28,017 nt of DNA, taken from the IMG/VR virus record IMGVR_UViG_3300027659_000167, positions 1 through 28,017 of that record, one strand, 5' to 3'. Source of the stretch: a virus. Position numbers and translations under genes: made by a program. Positions 4,778 through 18,528 of this stretch are shown here, piece after piece; positions within the stretch are counted from its first letter, which is position 1, and each line of letters starts with the position of its first letter. The notes beneath the pieces are model-generated. The model saw only the letters and a program-made list of their open reading frames with translations. It was not told where the DNA came from and searched no databases.

Positions 4778-4977
4778 TGTAATCTAAATTTTTTCAAGTA
4801 ATCTTTTACAACATCCAAGTTCTCTGCATCATACTCGGGTTTGTCTGGTTCGTCAAGTAAAATATCTAATCCATATTTTTCTTGATATAGTTCAACAAGC
4901 CCGTCAATCAACATACCCAATGTTTGTTCGTCAAGTTCATCAATGCCGGCTAAATTAATTCTAATTTTCTTATCCAT
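4774..4977 (-). CDS. Small acidic phage protein, 67 aa
   Basis: The protein starts MDKKIRINLAGIDELDEQTL and continues with an acidic helix (LIDGLVELYQEKYG) and a charged tail ending LKKFRLQ. The ATG at 4977 was chosen because it overlaps the TAA of the RNase H gene by 8 bases and has AGGTG upstream; a longer reading to 5034 would run deep into RNase H. It is probably co-translated with RNase H. No family is recognised with confidence. Confidence 0.75.
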   Translation of the reverse strand: MDKKIRINLAGIDELDEQTLGMLIDGLVELYQEKYGLDILLDEPDKPEYDAENLDVVKDYLKKFRLQ

Positions 4978-5977
4978 TGAGTACACCTGTATAGGGATTG
5001 TTAAGCCACCGTGAATATGTTTCTGATTGTTCACTGAGCTTAGTCAATTCGTATTTGTTACAAAATTTCATAAAGTGTATACCAACTTGAGATGTTGTAG
5101 TTGTACGAACACCATTGCGAATTGATTCATCAACCAATTGTTTAATCTCGTCAGGTTGTGCAGTTAAGTCAATCAGCATACGATTACGTTCATAGTCATC
5201 TTTAACCCGATGCTCGACATTTTCGTGGTCCAGCCAGCGTTGCAACATTAGATTGTTCCACGAAAAACCTTGCTTCATTCTATCTTCGTATGCTTCAATC
5301 AAACCAACCTTATTCTTAGAACCTTTTTCACGCACACCCGGATACGCACTGAATACGTTGTCGGAACTGTCTCCCCTCATACATTTTTTAAAAAGTAAGT
5401 ACTGTGGATCCTCTAACAATTTAGGCTGTTTAGTTTTCTTATCTAGTATCGGCTTACCCGTATCTTTAAGATATCCGGAGAGTGTGATGAGTTCATTTGC
5501 GACTCCATTGTACTGGAACACTTTATCAGTAATAAGCTGAACATAATCGGAATCAGTGCTAATAATATAATGCGTGTCATTTGGATGTAGATGGATAAAA
5601 CGGGCAATCAAATCATCAGCCTCAGCCCGTTCGTGCCTGAGTACACTGACGTTAGTTTTCTCTCGTATGTATGTGGTAAACTTTTCGTAAGTATCCCAAA
5701 ACATAGCCGATTCTTCTTTTTCTTCCTCAGTGACTGACATTGCATCAACCACACGATTTTTTTTGTAAGGACCGTATACTGCCTTCCTCCACGATTTCCC
5801 CTCCAAGCAAAATACAACATGGTCAATTCCATAGCGTCTTACTGCTTGATTAACACTAGCAAGTGTCAAGTGTAGGGCCATGCCGATTTTTTCTTCTAAT
5901 GTAGAGTTGCGACTAGCAACGTGTCTAGCACGGAAGAAGGTATTTGCCGTATCGATGAGTGCGTAACGTTTTGTCAT
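4970..5977 (-). CDS. rnh: RNase H / flap 5'-3' exonuclease, T4 Rnh type, 335 aa
   Basis: This belongs to the FEN/5'-3' exonuclease family; T4 RNase H removes RNA primers and trims adjacent DNA on the lagging strand. Metal-binding acidic motifs are visible: YALIDTANT (D9), RAEADDLIARF (E119, D121, D122), STDSDYVQL (D142, D144) and MRGDSSDN (D203, D206) followed by a helix-hairpin-helix-like YPGVREKGSKNK. Length is close to the 305-residue T4 protein. ATG at 5977 was chosen because it matches the family N-terminus. There is no ribosome binding site: the ATG lies only 6 bases after a perfect TATAAT, so the mRNA is probably leaderless. It heads an operon of seven small conserved genes. Confidence 0.9.
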   Translation of the reverse strand: MTKRYALIDTANTFFRARHVASRNSTLEEKIGMALHLTLASVNQAVRRYGIDHVVFCLEGKSWRKAVYGPYKKNRVVDAMSVTEEEKEESAMFWDTYEKFTTYIREKTNVSVLRHERAEADDLIARFIHLHPNDTHYIISTDSDYVQLITDKVFQYNGVANELITLSGYLKDTGKPILDKKTKQPKLLEDPQYLLFKKCMRGDSSDNVFSAYPGVREKGSKNKVGLIEAYEDRMKQGFSWNNLMLQRWLDHENVEHRVKDDYERNRMLIDLTAQPDEIKQLVDESIRNGVRTTTTSQVGIHFMKFCNKYELTKLSEQSETYSRWLNNPYTGVLNG

Positions 5978-5983
5978 GTGTGT

Positions 5984-6012
5984 ATTATATACGTATATTT
6001 AAATATTGTCAA
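5984..6012 (-). promoter_or_regulatory. Consensus sigma70 promoter giving a near-leaderless mRNA
   Basis: TTGACA (6007-6012) and TATAAT (5984-5989) are spaced by 17 bp on the minus strand. Only 6 bases (ACACAC) separate the -10 box from the ATG at 5977, which is where transcription would normally begin. The -35 box starts one base after the stop codon of the gene at 6014-7234. Confidence 0.92.
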
Positions 6013-6013
6013 G

Positions 6014-7234
6014 TCACAAGGAGTTAATTTTTACAGCATGTATTGTATTTGGTAATTGCATAAGTGCATCAACAACATTAATTGTAATATTTTTAGAATT
6101 TACGTATGCATAACCACCTCTAGCACCGGTGATTTTACACGAACCCAATAGATAGTCTTTGTAAATTATTTCTACCATTGCTAACAATGCATTATCTTTC
6201 CCTGAAGGTTGCCAATTATCATTTGATAAGGCTGACAATTTGGTCATTGCTTTTGTAACAGCAGATTTAGCTTTGTCTAGTGAACCAAATACATTTTCAA
6301 TAATGTAATGGTAATCATTCATCTGACTTTTTGAAATTCCGGGTAAGTGGTCAAAGATATTACCGTAAAAACCAAACATACCTGATTTTCGTGAATCTTG
6401 AGGCCAGTGATTATAATTTTCTTGTAAAATATATTTCAGTCTAGTAATATTTTTGTTGCTGACGATTGCACCAATATGAGTAATTGCTTCTTTAATCTGA
6501 GCATTTTTATGCTTATAGTGAAGTGGAACGCTATGCCCTTCGTTTAAGCATGCCGAAACCTGCTCAAGTGCTAGTATATCTTCTGGTTTAGCATATTTAG
6601 GGAAAAGTCGTGCAATAGCACTATTGCATCGCAAATGTTCAATCTCACCCCATATCAATTGGGTTCCGCCATTAATTTCACATGCAATACGCAGAGGGAA
6701 ACTTGCATCATCATTTTCCCATAGCATAGTAGGTATAGGGAAATCTCTCCAATCTTCTGGATCCCAACCCTTAATATTACCTGCTCGGATATTAACATAA
6801 AGAGCTAACAAATGATGAAAGCCATCTACTGTAATTAAATAGTTAAGCCAAGGATGTTTAACAGCATAAACAGTAGTGAAGGAACTAAATCTGAAATTTT
6901 GTACAATTTTTAACAAATTTCGAAAATCAACAAGCCTCTGAATCATCTCAAGCCAATGATGGTCACCCAATTTAGTCTCACAGGCTTTACCCATATTTTT
7001 TGGATCATAGTTGGGATCAGTACCAGCAACATCATTTGCTTTATTAGTTGTTAAAGCATTTTTTAACTTTTGAATTTTCAATAAATCATCGCCCACATCA
7101 GATATACTATATTTGACAAATTCGTGAATTTCTTTAATAAAAACATTATCAATTTTACTAAATGTAGATTTACCCTTACGTGGAGTAAATGTGCGTTTTT
7201 TCTGTGTCATTGGAGTTCCTGTTTGATTAGTCAT
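6014..7234 (-). CDS. DGQHR/ParB-like domain protein, 406 aa
   Basis: The N-terminus is basic (KKRTFTPRKGK). In the middle, YLITVDGFHHLLALYVNIRA (DGFHH at 137-141) is followed by DFPIPTMLW and CEINGGTQL (about 185-193). This order (DGxH, hydrophobic helix, IP-strand, then an iN block) matches the DGQHR/ParB-like fold found in DndB-type proteins and ParB-like nucleases, with the usual Arg after DGQH replaced by His. The C-terminal 180 residues are helical and unrecognised. ATG at 7234 has GAGG upstream; ATG at 7210 (AGGA upstream) is an alternative. It follows the PD-(D/E)xK-like gene by 3 bases. It is not a T4 core gene and looks like an accessory insertion; function is unproven. Confidence 0.7.
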   Translation of the reverse strand: MTNQTGTPMTQKKRTFTPRKGKSTFSKIDNVFIKEIHEFVKYSISDVGDDLLKIQKLKNALTTNKANDVAGTDPNYDPKNMGKACETKLGDHHWLEMIQRLVDFRNLLKIVQNFRFSSFTTVYAVKHPWLNYLITVDGFHHLLALYVNIRAGNIKGWDPEDWRDFPIPTMLWENDDASFPLRIACEINGGTQLIWGEIEHLRCNSAIARLFPKYAKPEDILALEQVSACLNEGHSVPLHYKHKNAQIKEAITHIGAIVSNKNITRLKYILQENYNHWPQDSRKSGMFGFYGNIFDHLPGISKSQMNDYHYIIENVFGSLDKAKSAVTKAMTKLSALSNDNWQPSGKDNALLAMVEIIYKDYLLGSCKITGARGGYAYVNSKNITINVVDALMQLPNTIHAVKINSL

Positions 7235-7237
7235 AAA

Positions 7238-7855
7238 TTATACCTCAAGTTTAGTTCTACGATTGAAATTTTGTCTTGCTTTGTCAATTAGTGTTTTTTG
7301 AAAATTCTTTACCATTTCATTAATATCAATTTTTTGAGTTACCGTTGATAAGTTTTTCGGTCCTGAAATTTCAATGATATGTTTTGATCCAATGACGATA
7401 TCAATTTGATTGCCTTTTTGTATAGTATTATGAATAGCAACGTGTTTGGGAATTATGAATGAACCGTCTTTCATAATAACTAAAATTATATCACAAATTT
7501 CATTTGGTTTTATTTTACGTTTAGAACGCAGGCTACATAATTTAATTGCAAAATTATCCTTTAATTTTCCTCGTCTGTCGTACATTGTATTGTTTAACAA
7601 TGACTTACATTCAAGTGATATACCAAAACGATGCCATTCAAAATCTTTGTGATTTTCACCCACAAATTCAAGTTCATCATCTTGTTCAGCAATAACATCT
7701 TCAATCAATCCACCTCGTAAAAAGTTGTATTGATTGCCTCTAATGTTATTAACGTGGTTCAAGGCAAAATCAATGATAAAATCCCATTCAAAAGACTTTA
7801 ACTTTGAAAGCACCTCAACATCAGTTTGTTGATTTACAGACATTCTACCCCGCAT
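7238..7855 (-). CDS. Putative PD-(D/E)xK nuclease-like protein, 205 aa
   Basis: A candidate active site is seen in FEWHRFGISLECKSLLNN, where ECK (82-84) ends a beta strand as in PD-(D/E)xK nucleases. Upstream acidic residues (E52, D53, D71) could supply the rest. A strand-rich section follows (CDIILVIMKDG, IDIVIGSKHIIEI) and then a basic helix (FQKTLIDKARQNFNRRTK). The size fits type II restriction-like enzymes. The start is ATG at 7855 or 7843; the latter has GGGGT just upstream. It has its own promoter (7873-7901) and is followed by the DGQHR-like gene. A role as a nuclease or inactive DNA-binding partner is inferred from pattern only. Confidence 0.65.
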   Translation of the reverse strand: MRGRMSVNQQTDVEVLSKLKSFEWDFIIDFALNHVNNIRGNQYNFLRGGLIEDVIAEQDDELEFVGENHKDFEWHRFGISLECKSLLNNTMYDRRGKLKDNFAIKLCSLRSKRKIKPNEICDIILVIMKDGSFIIPKHVAIHNTIQKGNQIDIVIGSKHIIEISGPKNLSTVTQKIDINEMVKNFQKTLIDKARQNFNRRTKLEV

Positions 7856-7872
7856 GAATTAATACAATCATT

Positions 7873-7901
7873 AATGTAACACAGTATGGATATGTAGTCA
7901 A
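7873..7901 (-). promoter_or_regulatory. Sigma70-like promoter
   Basis: TTGACT (7896-7901) and TACATT (7873-7878) are spaced by 17 bp on the minus strand, directly upstream of the two-gene cassette at 6014-7855. It has one mismatch in -35 and two in -10, so it is weaker than the early promoters. Confidence 0.55.
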
Positions 7902-7947
7902 CCGAAAAATGTAATACTGTTGTTTTATTTCAACATTAACAAGTTGA

Positions 7948-8373
7948 TTAACTTACTTCTGTTCGCCCATTTCCAATATCTTTTGAGTTCATCTTACGCA
8001 AATCTCTATGCTCAGGTTCGCCCGCAATTGATTGTTCATATACAGCTAAAACTGTATTCCTACAAATTTCGACCCACCAACGATCTAGTATATCATAATC
8101 AGTATCGTCATCACGCATCTTGTATCCTGCACGAATCAGATTCAAAATGAATTTGTCATTATAGTCAAGGTCAAAAGAACCTGCATTGATGTTCTCAGGA
8201 TCAACATCCATACTTAAAATCTGAACGTAAGGTTCACCTGCCGCGGTTGCTTTTTCCTTCTCGGTTAATTCCTTGATGGGTTCTTTTACTTTGGGAGTGC
8301 GAGGTTTCTTTTCCTTAACAGGTGCTACGACCTGTTCTACTGGCTTCTTTTTAAATATATCAAATAGTCCCAT
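7948..8373 (-). CDS. Conserved T4-like phage protein, 141 aa
   Basis: The protein begins MGLFDIFKKKP, then has a Lys/Pro/Glu-rich linker to about residue 40. A conserved domain follows: GEPYVQILSMDVDPENINAG, SFDLDYNDKFILNLIRAGY, and DILDRWWVEICRNTVLAVYE. This architecture (MGLFD-F-KKK, charged linker, GEPYV..VDPENP..G.F.LDWN) is a widespread hypothetical protein of T4-like marine phages, often near replication or structural genes. It is soluble, and function is unknown. ATG at 8373 overlaps the end of uvsE by 14 bases, and the two are probably co-translated. Confidence 0.88.
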   Translation of the reverse strand: MGLFDIFKKKPVEQVVAPVKEKKPRTPKVKEPIKELTEKEKATAAGEPYVQILSMDVDPENINAGSFDLDYNDKFILNLIRAGYKMRDDDTDYDILDRWWVEICRNTVLAVYEQSIAGEPEHRDLRKMNSKDIGNGRTEVS

Positions 8374-9379
8374 TTTGTTTTGCTCTTTCGTATAATTTAA
8401 AGCTGGCTAAATTCTTTGCCTTTGACTCGCACATGATATCAAAGTTGTCATTGAATGTCAATGCCCAGTCGTTAACAGCCTCGTTCCAATAGTAGATACT
8501 ATGGGCACGTAGTTTTTGTTTGTTATGTCCGGCAGCGATTAGCGTACCATGATCGGGTGCGATATGTCTGTCATGGTCAACAAGTACATCTTCCCGAGAT
8601 ACGGAATAGTGCATAGTAGGCCTACGGTCACGCCAACTATCAATAACCTTTTTAACCAAGTCGCTATCGTGTTCAATATATTCTCCAGTTTTAATCCAAT
8701 GATGATGAATGTCTAATACAATGGGTAGTAAGTCTGCCAACTCTAAGCAGTCATCTAGCCCCCAGCTAATTTCTTCGTTTTCGATAGTAATACAATTACG
8801 TGCTTCCGGTGAGAGTTTGGTATAGGTTTTACGTATACCTTCAGGACCTTGTCGTCCACTGATATGCACATTGATTTTGAAATCTTGAAATGTTTTGCCA
8901 TAGCCCATAAATCTAACCATGTCTGCATGATACTCAAACTCCCGAATACTGTTAGTTACAACTTCTTCCCTGTCACTTGCTAGAACAACAAACTGATCGG
9001 GGTGCATACTAAGACGAACATTGTTAGCACGTGCAGTCTCACCTAAGGGTGCAAACATGTCACTGAGAAATTTCTGATTGTCACTTGATTTCCAAAAGTC
9101 AAGAAATTCAGGATGAGTATAGAAACTAAGCATGTCGCTAGTTATACGTAGCATACGCAAACTTGGATCAAGAGTACTAACCTTTTTAATTAGATTATGG
9201 GTATTAGTGATATTGCGGTGTGCAACTTCTAGTATCTTATCTTCTGCTACAGGCCGAGTTTGGCGACGTGCCCATGCAAGTGTAGTACCACCAGTGTTTA
9301 GTCCCTCAACACTTACGATTTCACCCTTGTGGTTAATCTCGGCAAATTTGCAAGCAAAACCAATGCGTTTAATAGTCAT
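8360..9379 (-). CDS. uvsE: UV-damage endonuclease UvdE/UvsE, 339 aa
   Basis: UvdE-type endonucleases are metal-dependent TIM-barrel enzymes that nick DNA 5' to UV photoproducts and start excision repair. Family blocks are in order: KRIGFACKFAEIN at the start, NLIKKVSTLDPSLRMLRITS, RLSMHPDQFVVL, INVHISG, CITIENEE, LPIVLDIHHHW and PTMHYSVSRED. The His, Glu and Asp residues in these blocks are the expected metal ligands. Length fits the family (about 300-340). ATG at 9379 was chosen because the family N-terminus begins there and a perfect promoter lies 30-58 bases upstream; an upstream start at 9418 would overlap that promoter. There is no clear ribosome binding site. Its presence suggests a sunlit-water habitat. 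Confidence 0.92.
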   Translation of the reverse strand: MTIKRIGFACKFAEINHKGEIVSVEGLNTGGTTLAWARRQTRPVAEDKILEVAHRNITNTHNLIKKVSTLDPSLRMLRITSDMLSFYTHPEFLDFWKSSDNQKFLSDMFAPLGETARANNVRLSMHPDQFVVLASDREEVVTNSIREFEYHADMVRFMGYGKTFQDFKINVHISGRQGPEGIRKTYTKLSPEARNCITIENEEISWGLDDCLELADLLPIVLDIHHHWIKTGEYIEHDSDLVKKVIDSWRDRRPTMHYSVSREDVLVDHDRHIAPDHGTLIAAGHNKQKLRAHSIYYWNEAVNDWALTFNDNFDIMCESKAKNLASFKLYERAKQNGTI

Positions 9380-9408
9380 ATATATTATGTAAAGTATGTG
9401 AAGTCTTG

Positions 9409-9437
9409 AGTATATCACTATGCATATTTAGTGTCAA
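9409..9437 (-). promoter_or_regulatory. Sigma70 promoter for uvsE
   Basis: TTGACA (9432-9437) and TATACT (9409-9414) are spaced by 17 bp on the minus strand. The -35 and most of the spacer lie inside the last codons of the epimerase gene. It gives uvsE its own transcription. Confidence 0.88.
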
Positions 9438-10251
9438 CCGTCAATAATTCCGCTATTGTATAGAGTTTTTTCATATATTTTGAAGGATTTGCTAAAACAG
9501 ATACTTCTATGTCACCTTTACGCCTAGGACCGTATAAAGTGAAGAATTTCACGTTATTTATGATTTCAAAGATTTGAACCATTTCCCCAACACTATGTCC
9601 GACACCATGACCCAAATTCTCTAAACTGTTGCTAGGTTCTTCTATTGCCAACTTAAGGGCATGACAAATCTCATTCACATGAACATAGTCTCGTATGCAA
9701 GTTCCATCTAATGTGTTATAGTCTTTACCGAATATAGTGAAGTCTCCCTTTATCGGGGCTTGCATTAGATTATACATCAGACCATCAGGGTTAGTGGGTT
9801 TGAATCCATCACTACCTATAACGTTGTAGAATCTAAAAGTTGTGTGTGGAACTTTGTTTACTTGACAAAATTCTCGTATACAATCTTCTGTTGCCCGTTT
9901 ACTTACACCATAAGCACTTTCACACTTTTCGGCTGCACCTGTACTCGCAAAGATAAAGTTCTTTGTCTTAATATTTTGTAATATGTTTAGTGTACCAAAC
10001 AGATTAGTCATGTAATAATCTGTGGGTTCTAGTTCACTCTCACCTACATTAACTAATGCGGCCAAATGAATGATAGCATCAAACTCTTCCTTGACCTTTA
10101 GTTGACTTTTGATATCAAGATTATAATGTTTCTTAATTTTGAATTGAGGACCTACTATATCTAATCCATAGACTTCATATTCGTCATTTAACATCTTACT
10201 TAGATGACTACCAATGTAGCCTGAATTACCCGTGATTAAAACTTTTTTCAT
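9418..10251 (-). CDS. NAD-dependent sugar epimerase/dehydratase (GalE-like), 277 aa
   Basis: This is an extended short-chain dehydrogenase. It has the nucleotide-binding motif ITGNSGYIGSHL (G8, G11, G14), a D31-containing strand (GLDIVG), IIHLAALVNVG, the catalytic FASTGAAEK and YGVSK (Y114, K118), FRFYNVIGSDG and DGTCIRDYVHVNE. The C-terminal GHGVGHSVGEMVQIF and GPRRKGDIEVS blocks are typical of UDP-glucose 4-epimerases. At 277 residues it is shorter than GalE (about 340). It overlaps the glycosyltransferase stop (ATGA), so the two probably act together on a nucleotide sugar. Exact substrate unknown. Confidence 0.88.
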   Translation of the reverse strand: MKKVLITGNSGYIGSHLSKMLNDEYEVYGLDIVGPQFKIKKHYNLDIKSQLKVKEEFDAIIHLAALVNVGESELEPTDYYMTNLFGTLNILQNIKTKNFIFASTGAAEKCESAYGVSKRATEDCIREFCQVNKVPHTTFRFYNVIGSDGFKPTNPDGLMYNLMQAPIKGDFTIFGKDYNTLDGTCIRDYVHVNEICHALKLAIEEPSNSLENLGHGVGHSVGEMVQIFEIINNVKFFTLYGPRRKGDIEVSVLANPSKYMKKLYTIAELLTVDTKYA

Positions 10252-11594
10252 GTAAAACTAAATAGGTCAAAACCTATTTCCTCCTCTGTTGGTTTGAATG
10301 TTGGAACTTTTGAAAGATATGTGTTCTTGTCTGTATAAACTACATGTAAAAATTTATGTCTATTACCCAACACACTTTCAAAATCTTCCCTTGCTAAATG
10401 ACTACGATCCAATTCTTTGATGTAGTCACTGTACTTAATTGTTTCGTATGAGTTAATCTTTGCGGCATTTGTATTGCTCTTTTTGGTTACAAAGTTATCT
10501 AAGAACTTAATCCAACTCTCCGCTACTAATTCATCAAGTTGATTTACATATTTTAACCCAACTACAGATTCTGGTTCATTGTATAGTCTATTCAGTACTT
10601 CGGGTACTTCATCTTGCTTACACTTATAAAAAAGATTTTCGTTGAAGTTATCAGACCAATCTTGTTTGTCTAGTACTACACATGGCATATGACCTAGACA
10701 TTCTAAAAATGCAAATGGATAATTTTCACGCAAGCTAGGCATGAAAAATACTTTACAACCTTTAATGAAGTCTACTTTTTCTTGACCAGTAATTCCAGCT
10801 TTGATTTCGTAGTCAGTTATACCGGCTTCTTCAAATGCTTTGATAAATTTCTTTTCGCCATTTGAGTTAGTCATAACTTTACATGGAAGTTTGGCTTCCT
10901 TCATTGCTTTGATATATGATTCAGGGTTTTTACCTTCTTCCCATCGTCCAATGAATAGTACACCTTTACGATTAGTATTTGTATTAGGTTCTAACAACCC
11001 ACGCTCACTCATTGGCATAGGTAATTTAACACAGTTAGTTGCACCATACTTATTTAATTCATCAATATTCTTTTGACTTTGCGTACCGATAACAATATCA
11101 GTGAACTCCATATGCTTGTTAAAAAAATTGTGATAGCTACTTAGAAATACATCACTACCCTGACTCTCGCGGAAAATCATACTATGTAAATGTGTATAAA
11201 ATACAACCGGAATATATGCATTGATTGTCATTGCATATGCCGCAGTCATTGCTTCTTGTGTGTTGCACACAACCATGTCATAGATATTTGTTTCGAATGC
11301 TTTCAATAATGCTTTACGGAAATTTATAATCTTTTCAAAATTTATTGTGTCACTAAATGCAAAGGTAGCAGTATGGTCGCTATATCGTAATGCTTCTTCT
11401 GGGTATACAATATTTGCATTGTCAATCACTTTATCAAATGTACCAGTAGGTGCTTTATCTAATATAATATCAACCTTCCAGTTGATACGGTCGCACATCT
11501 CAGTAAAACTTTTACAAAAAGAACCAATACCCCCATGGGGTATAAAGTGCTGGTCACTAATCATAAAAGCAATTCGTTTATTATATGTCCGCAT
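10248..11594 (-). CDS. Glycosyltransferase, GT-B fold (GT4-like), 448 aa
   Basis: The N-terminal domain opens with IAFMISDQHFIPHGGIGSFC, a glycine-rich sugar-acceptor loop. The C-terminal domain has GVLFIGRWEEGKNPESYIKA, KVMTNSNGEKKF, KVFFMPSLRENYPFAFLECL and a following MPCVVL strand. ENYPFAFLE is an EX7E motif, which binds the sugar nucleotide in retaining GT4 enzymes. ATG at 11594 was chosen because GAGG lies just upstream; another ATG at 11606 has no binding site. It overlaps the preceding gene by 14 bases and is followed by the epimerase. The acceptor is unknown: DNA base, virion protein or host glycan are possible. Confidence 0.85.
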   Translation of the reverse strand: MRTYNKRIAFMISDQHFIPHGGIGSFCKSFTEMCDRINWKVDIILDKAPTGTFDKVIDNANIVYPEEALRYSDHTATFAFSDTINFEKIINFRKALLKAFETNIYDMVVCNTQEAMTAAYAMTINAYIPVVFYTHLHSMIFRESQGSDVFLSSYHNFFNKHMEFTDIVIGTQSQKNIDELNKYGATNCVKLPMPMSERGLLEPNTNTNRKGVLFIGRWEEGKNPESYIKAMKEAKLPCKVMTNSNGEKKFIKAFEEAGITDYEIKAGITGQEKVDFIKGCKVFFMPSLRENYPFAFLECLGHMPCVVLDKQDWSDNFNENLFYKCKQDEVPEVLNRLYNEPESVVGLKYVNQLDELVAESWIKFLDNFVTKKSNTNAAKINSYETIKYSDYIKELDRSHLAREDFESVLGNRHKFLHVVYTDKNTYLSKVPTFKPTEEEIGFDLFSFT

Positions 11595-11769
11595 TCCATA
11601 CCTCATCTACTGTGGGTACTGTAACCCAATCTGTCATTTCTGTGGTCTTAACAAAATGACCATTACTATCTTTTCTGCTATAATCAATTATATCAGCTTT
11701 TTGTCTATATTGCAATACTTGTTCGGGACCGTCCCACGTAGCTTGTATTAACCAGCGCATTTCAATCAT
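11581..11769 (-). CDS. Small phage protein, 62 aa
   Basis: The protein begins MIEMRWLIQATWDGPEQVLQ and continues YRQKADIIDYS, ending WVTVPTVDEVWNADI. Tryptophan- and valine-rich strands suggest a small beta fold. ATG at 11769 overlaps the TGA of the previous gene (ATGA), with GGGAAC upstream, so that start is preferred over one at 11784. The Q.R.. and TVPTVDEVW patterns are shared by small proteins of T4-like phages. Function unknown. Confidence 0.78.
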   Translation of the reverse strand: MIEMRWLIQATWDGPEQVLQYRQKADIIDYSRKDSNGHFVKTTEMTDWVTVPTVDEVWNADI

Positions 11770-12035: not shown

Positions 12036-12238
12036 TACTCTGTTCTACCCCATTTAATTTTAAGCCAAATACGTTCGTGAATATAATAGTCTATACTGAG
12101 AAGAATATGTAATGCGGTGGCAAATCCGGTAGCACTGGCAATGTCGCCGGTGAATAACCATGTCCAAAAGATCGTAAATAGCCACGCAGTTAAACGATAG
12201 GTAAGCATCCTTACTAATGTGCGTTTTTTAGTTTCCAT
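12035..12238 (-). CDS. DUF2061 family membrane protein, 67 aa
   Basis: The sequence METKKRTLVRMLTYRLTAWL, LFTIFWTWLFTGD, ASATGFATALHILLSIDYYI and HERIWLKIKWGRTE fits the DUF2061 family: an N-terminal basic TYR/SWR element, two hydrophobic segments around a GDI turn, and the YYxHERxW..I.WGR ending. It should sit in the inner membrane with two spans. Function is unknown. ATG at 12238 was preferred because it overlaps the TAA of queE (TAATG); another ATG lies at 12250. Confidence 0.87.
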   Translation of the reverse strand: METKKRTLVRMLTYRLTAWLFTIFWTWLFTGDIASATGFATALHILLSIDYYIHERIWLKIKWGRTE

Positions 12239-13080
12239 TAAGTTCCCCATTCGTTTTTAAAGAGTGGCACTTGTAGTCTATCACTATAACGCCAGCCTTT
12301 TTGTATTGCAAGTTCAGCAACAGTTCTGTTGTTCATGCTATAAACACTTTCAACACCACCACATGGCATAAGATATACAGGACCTTTAAAGCCTCGTTTA
12401 CGATATTCGTTTACTGCTTGCTCTGCTTCTTCTGCATCTTCTTTAGAAGCCACAACAAACTTTAAATACGTAAAACCAGTATTATAATATTGTTTAACAA
12501 TATCAGCACAGATTGCATCTTCCCAATTCTCACCACTGATGCTTAGTTTAGGACTAACACTAAATGTTAGACAATGTAAGAAACGATGTTTCTTCCATTC
12601 ATTTAAGAAAGTAACTAGTTCTGGTTCCAACAATTGTGTACCATTAGTTTCAAATGTTATTTCTTGTAAGCCACGCATATTGTCATGTGACAACAAGTCT
12701 ATATAAGCACGTTGCCAGCCTAGTAGTGGTTCACCACCCGTGATAACCAAATGCTCATCTTTCCAACGACCATGAGGAAGTAAATTGGTAATAGTATCAA
12801 CAATAGTATTGGTGTCGAGAACAGGACTGAGATGTTTGAAGCGCGGATCCCAACTCGCATAGCTATCGCATCCAGTAGATACAAGTGGTAGTGATTTATA
12901 AGATTTAAACTTTTCTCCGTCCACCTTAAAACGTTCAACACTTTTTTCTCCTTTAGTCATTCCAAAGCCATCACATTTAAAATTACACCCAAACGTGCGT
13001 AAGAACACGCTCGGGACACCCATGTAACGACCTTCACCTTGTATACTGTAAAACAGTTCTGATATTTTAAGTTTGCTCAT
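12238..13080 (-). CDS. queE: 7-carboxy-7-deazaguanine synthase QueE, 280 aa
   Basis: QueE is a radical SAM enzyme that converts 6-carboxytetrahydropterin to 7-carboxy-7-deazaguanine (CDG). Family blocks are ISELFYSIQGEGRYMGVPSV, FLRTFGCNFKC, HLVITGGEPLL, ITFETNGTQLL, LTFSVSPKLSISGE and FKFVVASKEDAEE-type sequence. The 4Fe-4S cysteines are C32 and C36, with the third apparently C71 in LVSTGCDSYASW, so about 34 residues are inserted between the second and third cysteines instead of the usual short spacing. GGEP binds SAM. It lies between queD and a DUF2061 gene in one overlapping operon, and works with FolE and QueD. Confidence 0.93.
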   Translation of the reverse strand: MSKLKISELFYSIQGEGRYMGVPSVFLRTFGCNFKCDGFGMTKGEKSVERFKVDGEKFKSYKSLPLVSTGCDSYASWDPRFKHLSPVLDTNTIVDTITNLLPHGRWKDEHLVITGGEPLLGWQRAYIDLLSHDNMRGLQEITFETNGTQLLEPELVTFLNEWKKHRFLHCLTFSVSPKLSISGENWEDAICADIVKQYYNTGFTYLKFVVASKEDAEEAEQAVNEYRKRGFKGPVYLMPCGGVESVYSMNNRTVAELAIQKGWRYSDRLQVPLFKNEWGT

Positions 13081-17352: not shown

Positions 17353-18528
17353 TTAATATTTACTTTCTCTTGTGTGCTTGCGATAGTCAGTACTCATACG
17401 CAACCATTGCTCACCATTGCCCTCCATGATATCACAGATACGGTCAATAGTACCATCATTCCAATCACTAATCATACCTTGCTTTTTATGCGGTGTATGT
17501 AGCATATTGAATAACTTGATTGCGGCATCTTCTACACTCCATGGAGTATACAGCCTTGTATAATCATTTGCAAAGGTTTCGGGGAAACTGCGATAAGCAG
17601 GATAAAGTACATTGCAACCAAGAGTATCTGCTTCACTGACCGTATTGCTGACCCAATCTTGGAGGGCGCAGTTGAACAAAACTCTTGAGTCATTAAGGAG
17701 ACTATAGTAGTCATTTTTTTCTAAATCTTCATATACTTTGAGTTTACCATCTCTACGCATTTGATGTGTGCGTTCCATGTAACTACTATTGTTACTACGT
17801 AGTGGTGCACCACTTAATACCGCAAACTCTGCACTTCTATTACCGTATCTATTATTGAATTCTTCAATAACATCCATGAAGAAATCAGGTTGCTTTTCTT
17901 GATCCCAACGTGCGGTAAATACAATACGAGGTGTACGCTCATTAAATGGCTTTAGTTCGCCAACACGCCCGCGTACTTCTTCTTTACCAAATGCAAGACC
18001 TGATATATTATAAATTGGGGCTTCCCAGCCTGCAATCTTCATGTTCATTACCATTTCTTCATTCGTTGCAAGCATACCATCTACGAATGAGTCAACCATC
18101 TTTTCATAGTGACCCATAAACTTAGCCATACCCCATACATGAACAAAATCATCAGGATCAATGGACTGAGCAAGACAGCGAACATAAATCCGAGGCCTGT
18201 TAACTGTGTCGATTTGTTTAAGAATATAGGGTAAAGATTCAATGCCAGGCTGAAACATATCTTCAAAGTAGATAACATCTTCATTGTTTAGTTCACCGGC
18301 TTTCATCATACGAATCAAATTCATTAGTTGCGACATACCAAAGTATGTGCGACCATGTGCATCTAATACTTGACCAGTAACAATCGCTTGGTCGTTACTT
18401 AGTGTTTCGCCCGGGACAATAACATAATCAATGCCCCGTTTATCAAAGACAGCACGATTCCACTCTTGTAATTGCAGAGTATATCGTGCTTTATAGGGCT
18501 CAAGGCCCATATAATATAGTCTACGCAT
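17353..18528 (-). CDS. Glycosyltransferase, GT4-like, 391 aa
   Basis: The N-terminal half binds the acceptor (LYYMGLEPYKARYTLQLQEW, YVIVPGETL). The C-terminal half is GT-B: RIVFTARWDQEKQPDFFMDV, EFAVLSGAPL, KVYEDLEKNDYYSLLNDSRV, then DWVSNTVSEADTLGCNVLYP. DWVSNTVSE takes the place of the EX7E motif, with Asp in the first position. Related proteins occur in other T4-like phages. It overlaps the previous gene by 8 bases. Its presence in the dpdA-folE segment is intriguing, but the sugar and acceptor are unknown. Confidence 0.85.
   Translation of the reverse strand: MRRLYYMGLEPYKARYTLQLQEWNRAVFDKRGIDYVIVPGETLSNDQAIVTGQVLDAHGRTYFGMSQLMNLIRMMKAGELNNEDVIYFEDMFQPGIESLPYILKQIDTVNRPRIYVRCLAQSIDPDDFVHVWGMAKFMGHYEKMVDSFVDGMLATNEEMVMNMKIAGWEAPIYNISGLAFGKEEVRGRVGELKPFNERTPRIVFTARWDQEKQPDFFMDVIEEFNNRYGNRSAEFAVLSGAPLRSNNSSYMERTHQMRRDGKLKVYEDLEKNDYYSLLNDSRVLFNCALQDWVSNTVSEADTLGCNVLYPAYRSFPETFANDYTRLYTPWSVEDAAIKLFNMLHTPHKKQGMISDWNDGTIDRICDIMEGNGEQWLRMSTDYRKHTRESKY

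Follow-up and report, generated by a model that had tools for sequence, protein, structure and literature searches.

Type IV restriction enzymes of the GmrSD kind (DUF262 + DUF1524) join a ParB/sulfiredoxin (ParB/Srx) DGQQR domain with a nuclease domain, and the two parts, GmrS and GmrD, may be encoded separately (PMC4619093). Three motifs are recognised in DGQHR domains, namely QR, a DGQHR-like stretch and FxxxN (PMC4619093). Phage homing endonuclease genes are known from positions next to essential genes and from the borders of exchanged regions, and the free-standing ones (T4 seg/mob, ICP1 T5orf172) are small nuclease genes with occupied and empty alleles (PMC10448857). According to PMC11620839, a homing nuclease of a jumbo phage mediates interference between co-infecting phages. 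The two-gene cassette described here is like GmrSD-type restriction in its architecture and like homing endonucleases in its genomic behaviour, and it belongs to neither described family. It shares with GmrSD a ParB/Srx subunit bearing QR, DGQxx and FxxxN next to a nuclease subunit, but it differs in having a PD-(D/E)xK or GIY-YIG nuclease instead of an HNH one, in its DGQHT-type ParB/Srx protein and in its location in a phage exchange slot; no DUF262 or DUF1524 (HNH) match was found by Pfam for the cassette proteins. With the free-standing homing genes it has in common the neighbourhood of an essential-type gene, the occupied and empty alleles and the exchange boundary; in contrast to them, it consists of two obligately paired genes, with recognition and cutting apparently on separate proteins, and its homing is putative.

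The cassette lies in a fragment of 28 kb from an IMG/VR virus record, called the window here. As an earlier note on this DNA had proposed, two open reading frames follow each other with a spacing of 3 bp; P0002 and P0001 are both on the minus strand (Table 1). The same note had placed them between rnh and uvsE. The rnh gene, which codes for a T4 Rnh-like exonuclease, does adjoin the pair, downstream of it, and forms the fixed right flank of the slot, but the 141-aa gene that forms the left flank separates the pair from uvsE; both flanking genes are context and lie outside the cassette. The AT-richness noticed by eye was borne out by the computed GC content, which was 30.3% for P0002 (the lowest of 32 window genes checked) and 33.7% for P0001 (the third lowest) against 36.9% for the window. 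Values of dN/dS between 0.02 and 0.14, with the nuclease more constrained in every compared pair, indicated strong purifying selection on both genes and therefore that they are real genes. For a promoter of the pair's own, this sequence by itself gave weak support: the 9/12 score of the putative cassette promoter was reached by 58% of shuffles and so did not stand out from chance, but TTGAC elements recurred at the same position at the start of other cassettes, making such a promoter plausible. The rnh promoter at the other boundary was kept downstream of most cassettes.

Table 1. Coordinates of the cassette, its flanks and the motifs of its two proteins in the window.
Feature	Positions	Strand	Description
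P0002	7238-7855	(-)	205 aa; predicted PD-(D/E)xK nuclease subunit
P0001	6014-7234	(-)	406 aa; predicted DGQHR-like ParB/sulfiredoxin-fold subunit
rnh	4970-5977	(-)	T4 Rnh-like 5'-3' exonuclease; Pfam 5_3_exonuc_N 1.4e-17, PHROG 107 5.8e-37
141-aa structural-type gene	7948-8373	(-)	PHROG 13349 1.6e-6; conserved left flank
uvsE	8360-9418		UvdE 2.8e-40; next gene on the upstream side of the 141-aa gene
5' slot boundary and putative cassette promoter	7856-7947	(-)	TTGACT-N17-TACATT; 9/12 matches
3' slot boundary, rnh sigma-70 promoter	5978-6013	(-)	TTGACA-N17-TATAAT; 12/12 match, directly past the P0001 stop codon
P0002 E52, predicted active-site glutamate	7700-7702	(-)	invariant; core helix 41-56 in model
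P0002 D71, 'PD' aspartate	7643-7645	(-)	invariant; strand 70-74 in model
P0002 E82-C83-K84, (D/E)xK motif	7604-7612	(-)	invariant E and K with C or L between them; strand 79-86 in model
P0001 Q99-R100, 'QR' motif of DGQHR domains	6935-6940	(-)	75/75 distinct homologues
P0001 D137-G-F-H-H141, DGQHR/DGQHT variant	6812-6826	(-)	family consensus DGQHT
P0001 N188, FxxxN asparagine	6671-6673	(-)	A replaces F here; N 75/75

Other genes of the window were also noted. A QueE-like radical SAM gene (12238-13080; PHROG 2076, 1.9e-52) is a possible sign of 7-deazaguanine metabolism, and the related isolate Pseudomonas phage PA5oct likewise has a QueE-like gene near its exonuclease. In the regions 9418-11606 and 17353-18528 there are a gene for a nucleotide-sugar epimerase and two genes resembling glycosyltransferases, the latter of these two weakly. 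The nearby QueE gene had prompted us to consider a DpdB-like role in 7-deazaguanine modification, which was set aside because it is the nuclease and the slot that the P0001 family follows.

Scans of P0001 and P0002 taken singly against Pfam, PHROG, NCBIfam and PADLOC gave nothing of note, PADLOC showing no anti-phage defence match for either protein, and searches of PDB sequences with the single proteins and with profiles were negative. Since P0001 alone fell below every family cut-off, its assignment rests on its family, which was gathered more widely via the exchange slot and provided 75 distinct full-length homologues for the motif counts. The family consensus (...IQR...H...I...FD...DGQHT...FLxxN) matched the ParB-like PHROG 1033 at 5.5e-7 over residues 61-195, although no ParB match appeared in a Pfam scan of the same consensus. 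Within the DGxH motif, D was found in 68/75, G in 66/75 and the fourth-place H in 74/75 members; P0001 itself is divergent, with DGFHH and AxxxN. Judged at the family level and from sequence, P0001 is thus a divergent DGQHR-type ParB/sulfiredoxin-fold protein, in agreement with the DGQHR/ParB-like protein that had been suggested from its DGFHH stretch.

The AlphaFold2 (AF2) model of P0001 was poor (pLDDT 44), because its alignment contained just 7 sequences and predated the wider family. Foldseek ranked ParB, KorB, Noc and PadC at the top for this weak model, followed by sulfiredoxin, with a best E of 0.03. The P0001 family has the same three sequence motifs as DndB and the DGQHR domain (PF14072, TIGR03187), but it differs from them in its nuclease partner; nothing in the window scored above the curated cut-off of either model, only two P0001 relatives matched DndB (best E 0.18), and no dnd genes were recognised in the 28 kb. 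Members of the family also matched the DUF6551 / PHROG 1033 ParB-like phage proteins weakly (0.0025 and 0.0002), whose family descriptions include no obligate nuclease partner, unlike the P0001 family.

The canonical PD-(D/E)xK arrangement comprises an acidic residue in a core helix, an aspartate on the second strand and a (D/E)xK motif on the next strand (PMC11347163). All of these elements were found in P0002, where E52, D71, E82 and K84 are invariant in 10 homologues, and in its AF2 model (pLDDT 74) E52 lies in the first core helix whereas D71 and E82-x-K84 lie on successive strands. The top Foldseek matches of this model were NhoI (E 4.3e-4) and DpnI (E 9e-4), both with a probability of 1.00, and several small uncharacterised phage proteins were also among the matches. 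The PD-(D/E)xK nuclease that had been read from the GISLECKS strand therefore gained its full signature, a check of its active-site residues and a predicted nuclease core, and we conclude from the conserved residues and the model that P0002 is a member of this superfamily, predicted to cleave DNA. The likeness to NhoI and DpnI is remote, as shown by TM values of 0.38-0.40 on a model of pLDDT 74.

Neither a winged helix nor any other significant Pfam match was found in P0002, and past the core its model showed only strands and one long C-terminal helix. The absence of a winged helix, which in DpnI enzymes senses the modification and accompanies the catalytic domain, places P0002, by its modelled architecture, outside the DpnI family. 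It thus shares with the DpnI and BisI/NhoI endonucleases the predicted fold and the helix-E / D / ExK active site, but differs from them in having no detectable sequence homology, no winged-helix domain and a ParB-like partner beside it. Weak partial PDC-S05 matches (0.001-0.009) were given by PADLOC for two P0002 relatives, and an AbrB/MazE-like match at the C-terminus (0.014, one relative) was dismissed as partial.

To the earlier proposal, two observations can be added: exchange is concentrated at this slot, and a GIY-YIG enzyme can take the place of the nuclease partner. In the set anchored on the exonuclease (80 of 349 loci listed), a P0001-family gene was present in 42 contigs (30 distinct sequences), and all 41 loci of these with enough contig had a coupled nuclease. 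At 14 loci the partner was a PD-(D/E)xK gene directly upstream of the P0001 relative (gaps of -4 to +20 bp); at 27 it was a GIY-YIG gene of about 140 aa directly downstream, overlapping by 1-23 bp; and both types together were found in no case. The three exceptions end at contig ends (L003, with no partner; L040 and L068, with GIY-YIG but no P0001). The GIY-YIG partner was recognised by matches to MUG113 (1.9e-5 with a member and 7e-6 with the consensus), T5orf172 (7.4e-6 with the consensus) and the GIY-YIG profile, and by the conservation of Y, G, R and E. A further search started from the GIY-YIG clade, and its results overlapped the first set in part; it yielded 90 P0001-family loci, with a downstream GIY-YIG gene in 90/90 and an exonuclease within 4 kb, usually adjacent, in 86/90.

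The P0001 proteins linked to PD-(D/E)xK formed one clade with a support of 100/100, which fits one partner exchange that also altered the gene order and that, given the weak deep forks of the tree, may have gone in either direction. The earlier note had named two outcomes that would speak against it, namely predicted structures with neither a nuclease core nor a DGQHR fold, and a failure of the two genes to co-occur elsewhere. We found instead a nuclease core, a DGQHR-type family and a nuclease beside P0001 in every testable relative.

Relatives of neither protein were found by tblastn against annotated phages, and the family consensus detected one remote P0001 relative, in Sinorhizobium phage Phosso (L107:3857-5636), where it is followed by a 268-aa gene that matched neither the PD-(D/E)xK nor the GIY-YIG profile and is perhaps a third partner type. 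A match on a Methylorubrum plasmid proved to be a weak ParB-like relative only. No relative was found in a seed search of 84,980 bacterial and archaeal species genomes, in which distant relatives could be missed because the seeds were drawn from the closest members.

The interval that begins after the 141-aa gene and ends at the rnh promoter, delimited in the exonuclease search, is a fixed exchange site beside a replication gene; the giant phages that share it form a large group, mostly from fresh water. Among the 80 of 349 loci listed, this slot was empty in 12 contigs (53-70 bp) and otherwise held 0.3-3.6 kb of variable sequence. Its right edge was sharp, the last cassette gene usually ending just before the strong sigma-70-type exonuclease promoter, and in PA5oct the structural gene directly abuts the exonuclease. 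The occupants were mostly of nuclease type (HNH, NUMOD3-HNH, ResIII-helicase-HNH fusions and GIY-YIG), together with several unknown families; NUMOD3-HNH proteins are typical homing endonucleases.

Several occupants may be described individually. A ResIII/DEAD helicase-HNH fusion of 602-628 aa was found at L036:3155-4966 and in relatives, with stand-alone HNH relatives also in the slot. An uncharacterised 263-aa family (L029:2962-3753 and relatives) recurred, often beside an HNH gene, and proteins of about 195 aa (L029:2336-2911 and relatives) had a KIGxS...R stretch resembling T5orf172/GIY-YIG by eye, with no Pfam match. Upstream of P0002/P0001 at L004:2054-3644, and likewise in L005, there is a putative restriction-modification (methyltransferase-nuclease) pair, consisting of a 194-aa protein and a 338-aa N6/N4 methyltransferase (Pfam 3.9e-7).

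Comparison of the window with close relatives revealed recent exchange. Contigs L026-L028 were 99.0-99.5% identical to it as far as base 6014, where the stop codon of P0001 ends; past this base they carry the GIY-YIG version, with only remote P0001 homology, and then a left flank about 80% identical. Near-identical phages thus differ in the pair that they bear, and the break coincides exactly with the stop codon. The cassette of contig L002 is nearly the same, but the rnh gene there has diverged over its first ~750 bp, amid sequence mostly 90-100% identical. Cassettes were also found beside other genes in L153, L184 and L185. Taken together, the break, L002 and these loci outside the slot indicate that each pair is exchanged as a whole and that pairs now and then change location. 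The rnh allele was not tied to the cassette, L002 sharing the cassette and not the 5' part of rnh and L026 sharing rnh and not the cassette, which argues against a simple target within rnh. Positions 5200-5974 of the window (5' part of rnh) are only 58-87% identical to L002, a local allele replacement beside the cassette, and the ParB/Srx + GIY-YIG cassettes away from the rnh slot were located at L153:1905-3634 and L185:4914-6618.

We propose, with about an even chance of being right, that P0001 and P0002 are a two-subunit nuclease, carried as a mobile cassette, for competition between phages by homing or exclusion. The two proteins would form a complex in which P0001, through its ParB/Srx fold and possibly in a nucleotide-bound form, recognises a DNA site or DNA state and gates the activity, while P0002 would supply the PD-(D/E)xK cutting centre. 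During co-infection with a rival phage whose slot is empty or different, the enzyme would cleave the rival's DNA, and repair from the carrier genome would then copy the cassette into the rival (homing); alternatively, the rival would be disabled (exclusion). To our knowledge, no modular ParB-guided DNA cutter for phage-phage conflict has been described, and we know of no split two-gene homing endonucleases of such kind. Few known homing enzymes have the PD-(D/E)xK fold. PMC6083498 places this fold among the homing families. A homing gene is expected to have a precise site that is filled in some genomes and empty in others, and both states were found here (12 empty slots, and an exact edge at the P0001 stop). 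A more specific version, in which the ParB/Srx protein would act as a nucleotide-gated clamp or site reader that delivers interchangeable nuclease subunits (PD-(D/E)xK, GIY-YIG) for homing or exclusion, is put forward tentatively and is rather doubtful.

The main rival to a two-subunit conflict nuclease is a phage-borne, type IV-like modification-dependent restriction system, owing to the parallel with the architecture of GmrSD: P0001 would correspond to GmrS and P0002 to DpnI/NhoI, and DNA bearing modifications, from competing phages or other elements, would be cut with no homing. We consider this explanation unlikely, although it deserves serious attention, because both of the best structural matches of P0002 are modification-dependent nucleases and a putative methyltransferase-nuclease pair occupies the same slot in L004/L005. 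A useful restriction system, too, would be expected to show a low dN/dS. However, no modification-reading domain (winged helix, SRA or EVE) was recognised, the GIY-YIG partner has no modification link, the pair hardly occurs outside a single slot in a single phage lineage, and the negative outcomes of PADLOC for both proteins and of the prokaryotic genome search with closest-member seeds point the same way.

A toxin-antitoxin or regulatory pair, in which P0001 would restrain P0002 or control DNA partition like ParB, appears improbable. In its favour are the ParB-like fold of P0001 and the C-terminus of P0002, which matches an antitoxin PHROG weakly (0.001-0.009), but this match overlaps the late strands and the C-terminal helix of the model, which are continuous with the nuclease core, and neither parA nor parS was seen; one P0001 family with two unrelated nucleases in reversed gene order better fits shared recognition or gating. 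Host attack was the weakest of the three options offered originally, the others being exclusion and homing. A nuclease serving host takeover, by degrading host DNA or releasing nucleotides next to the replication genes, would agree with the nuclease fold, with the adjoining rnh and with the nearby uvsE, but it is very improbable given that the pair is dispensable (the 12 empty slots among the 80 of 349 loci listed), that unrelated nucleases replace it in close relatives and that a dedicated ParB-like partner is required.

If the proposal of a two-subunit conflict nuclease is true, phages possess a mobile weapon at a defined slot of the genome, built on a ParB-type platform into which different nucleases can be plugged and paralleling GmrSD restriction. 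Two unrelated nuclease folds on one conserved partner constitute a natural experiment on what the ParB/Srx (DGQHR) protein contributes, which bears on DndB, DpdB, GmrS and many unnamed phage proteins. Because the slot occurs both empty and filled, and with many types of nuclease, it allows a direct test of homing against exclusion.
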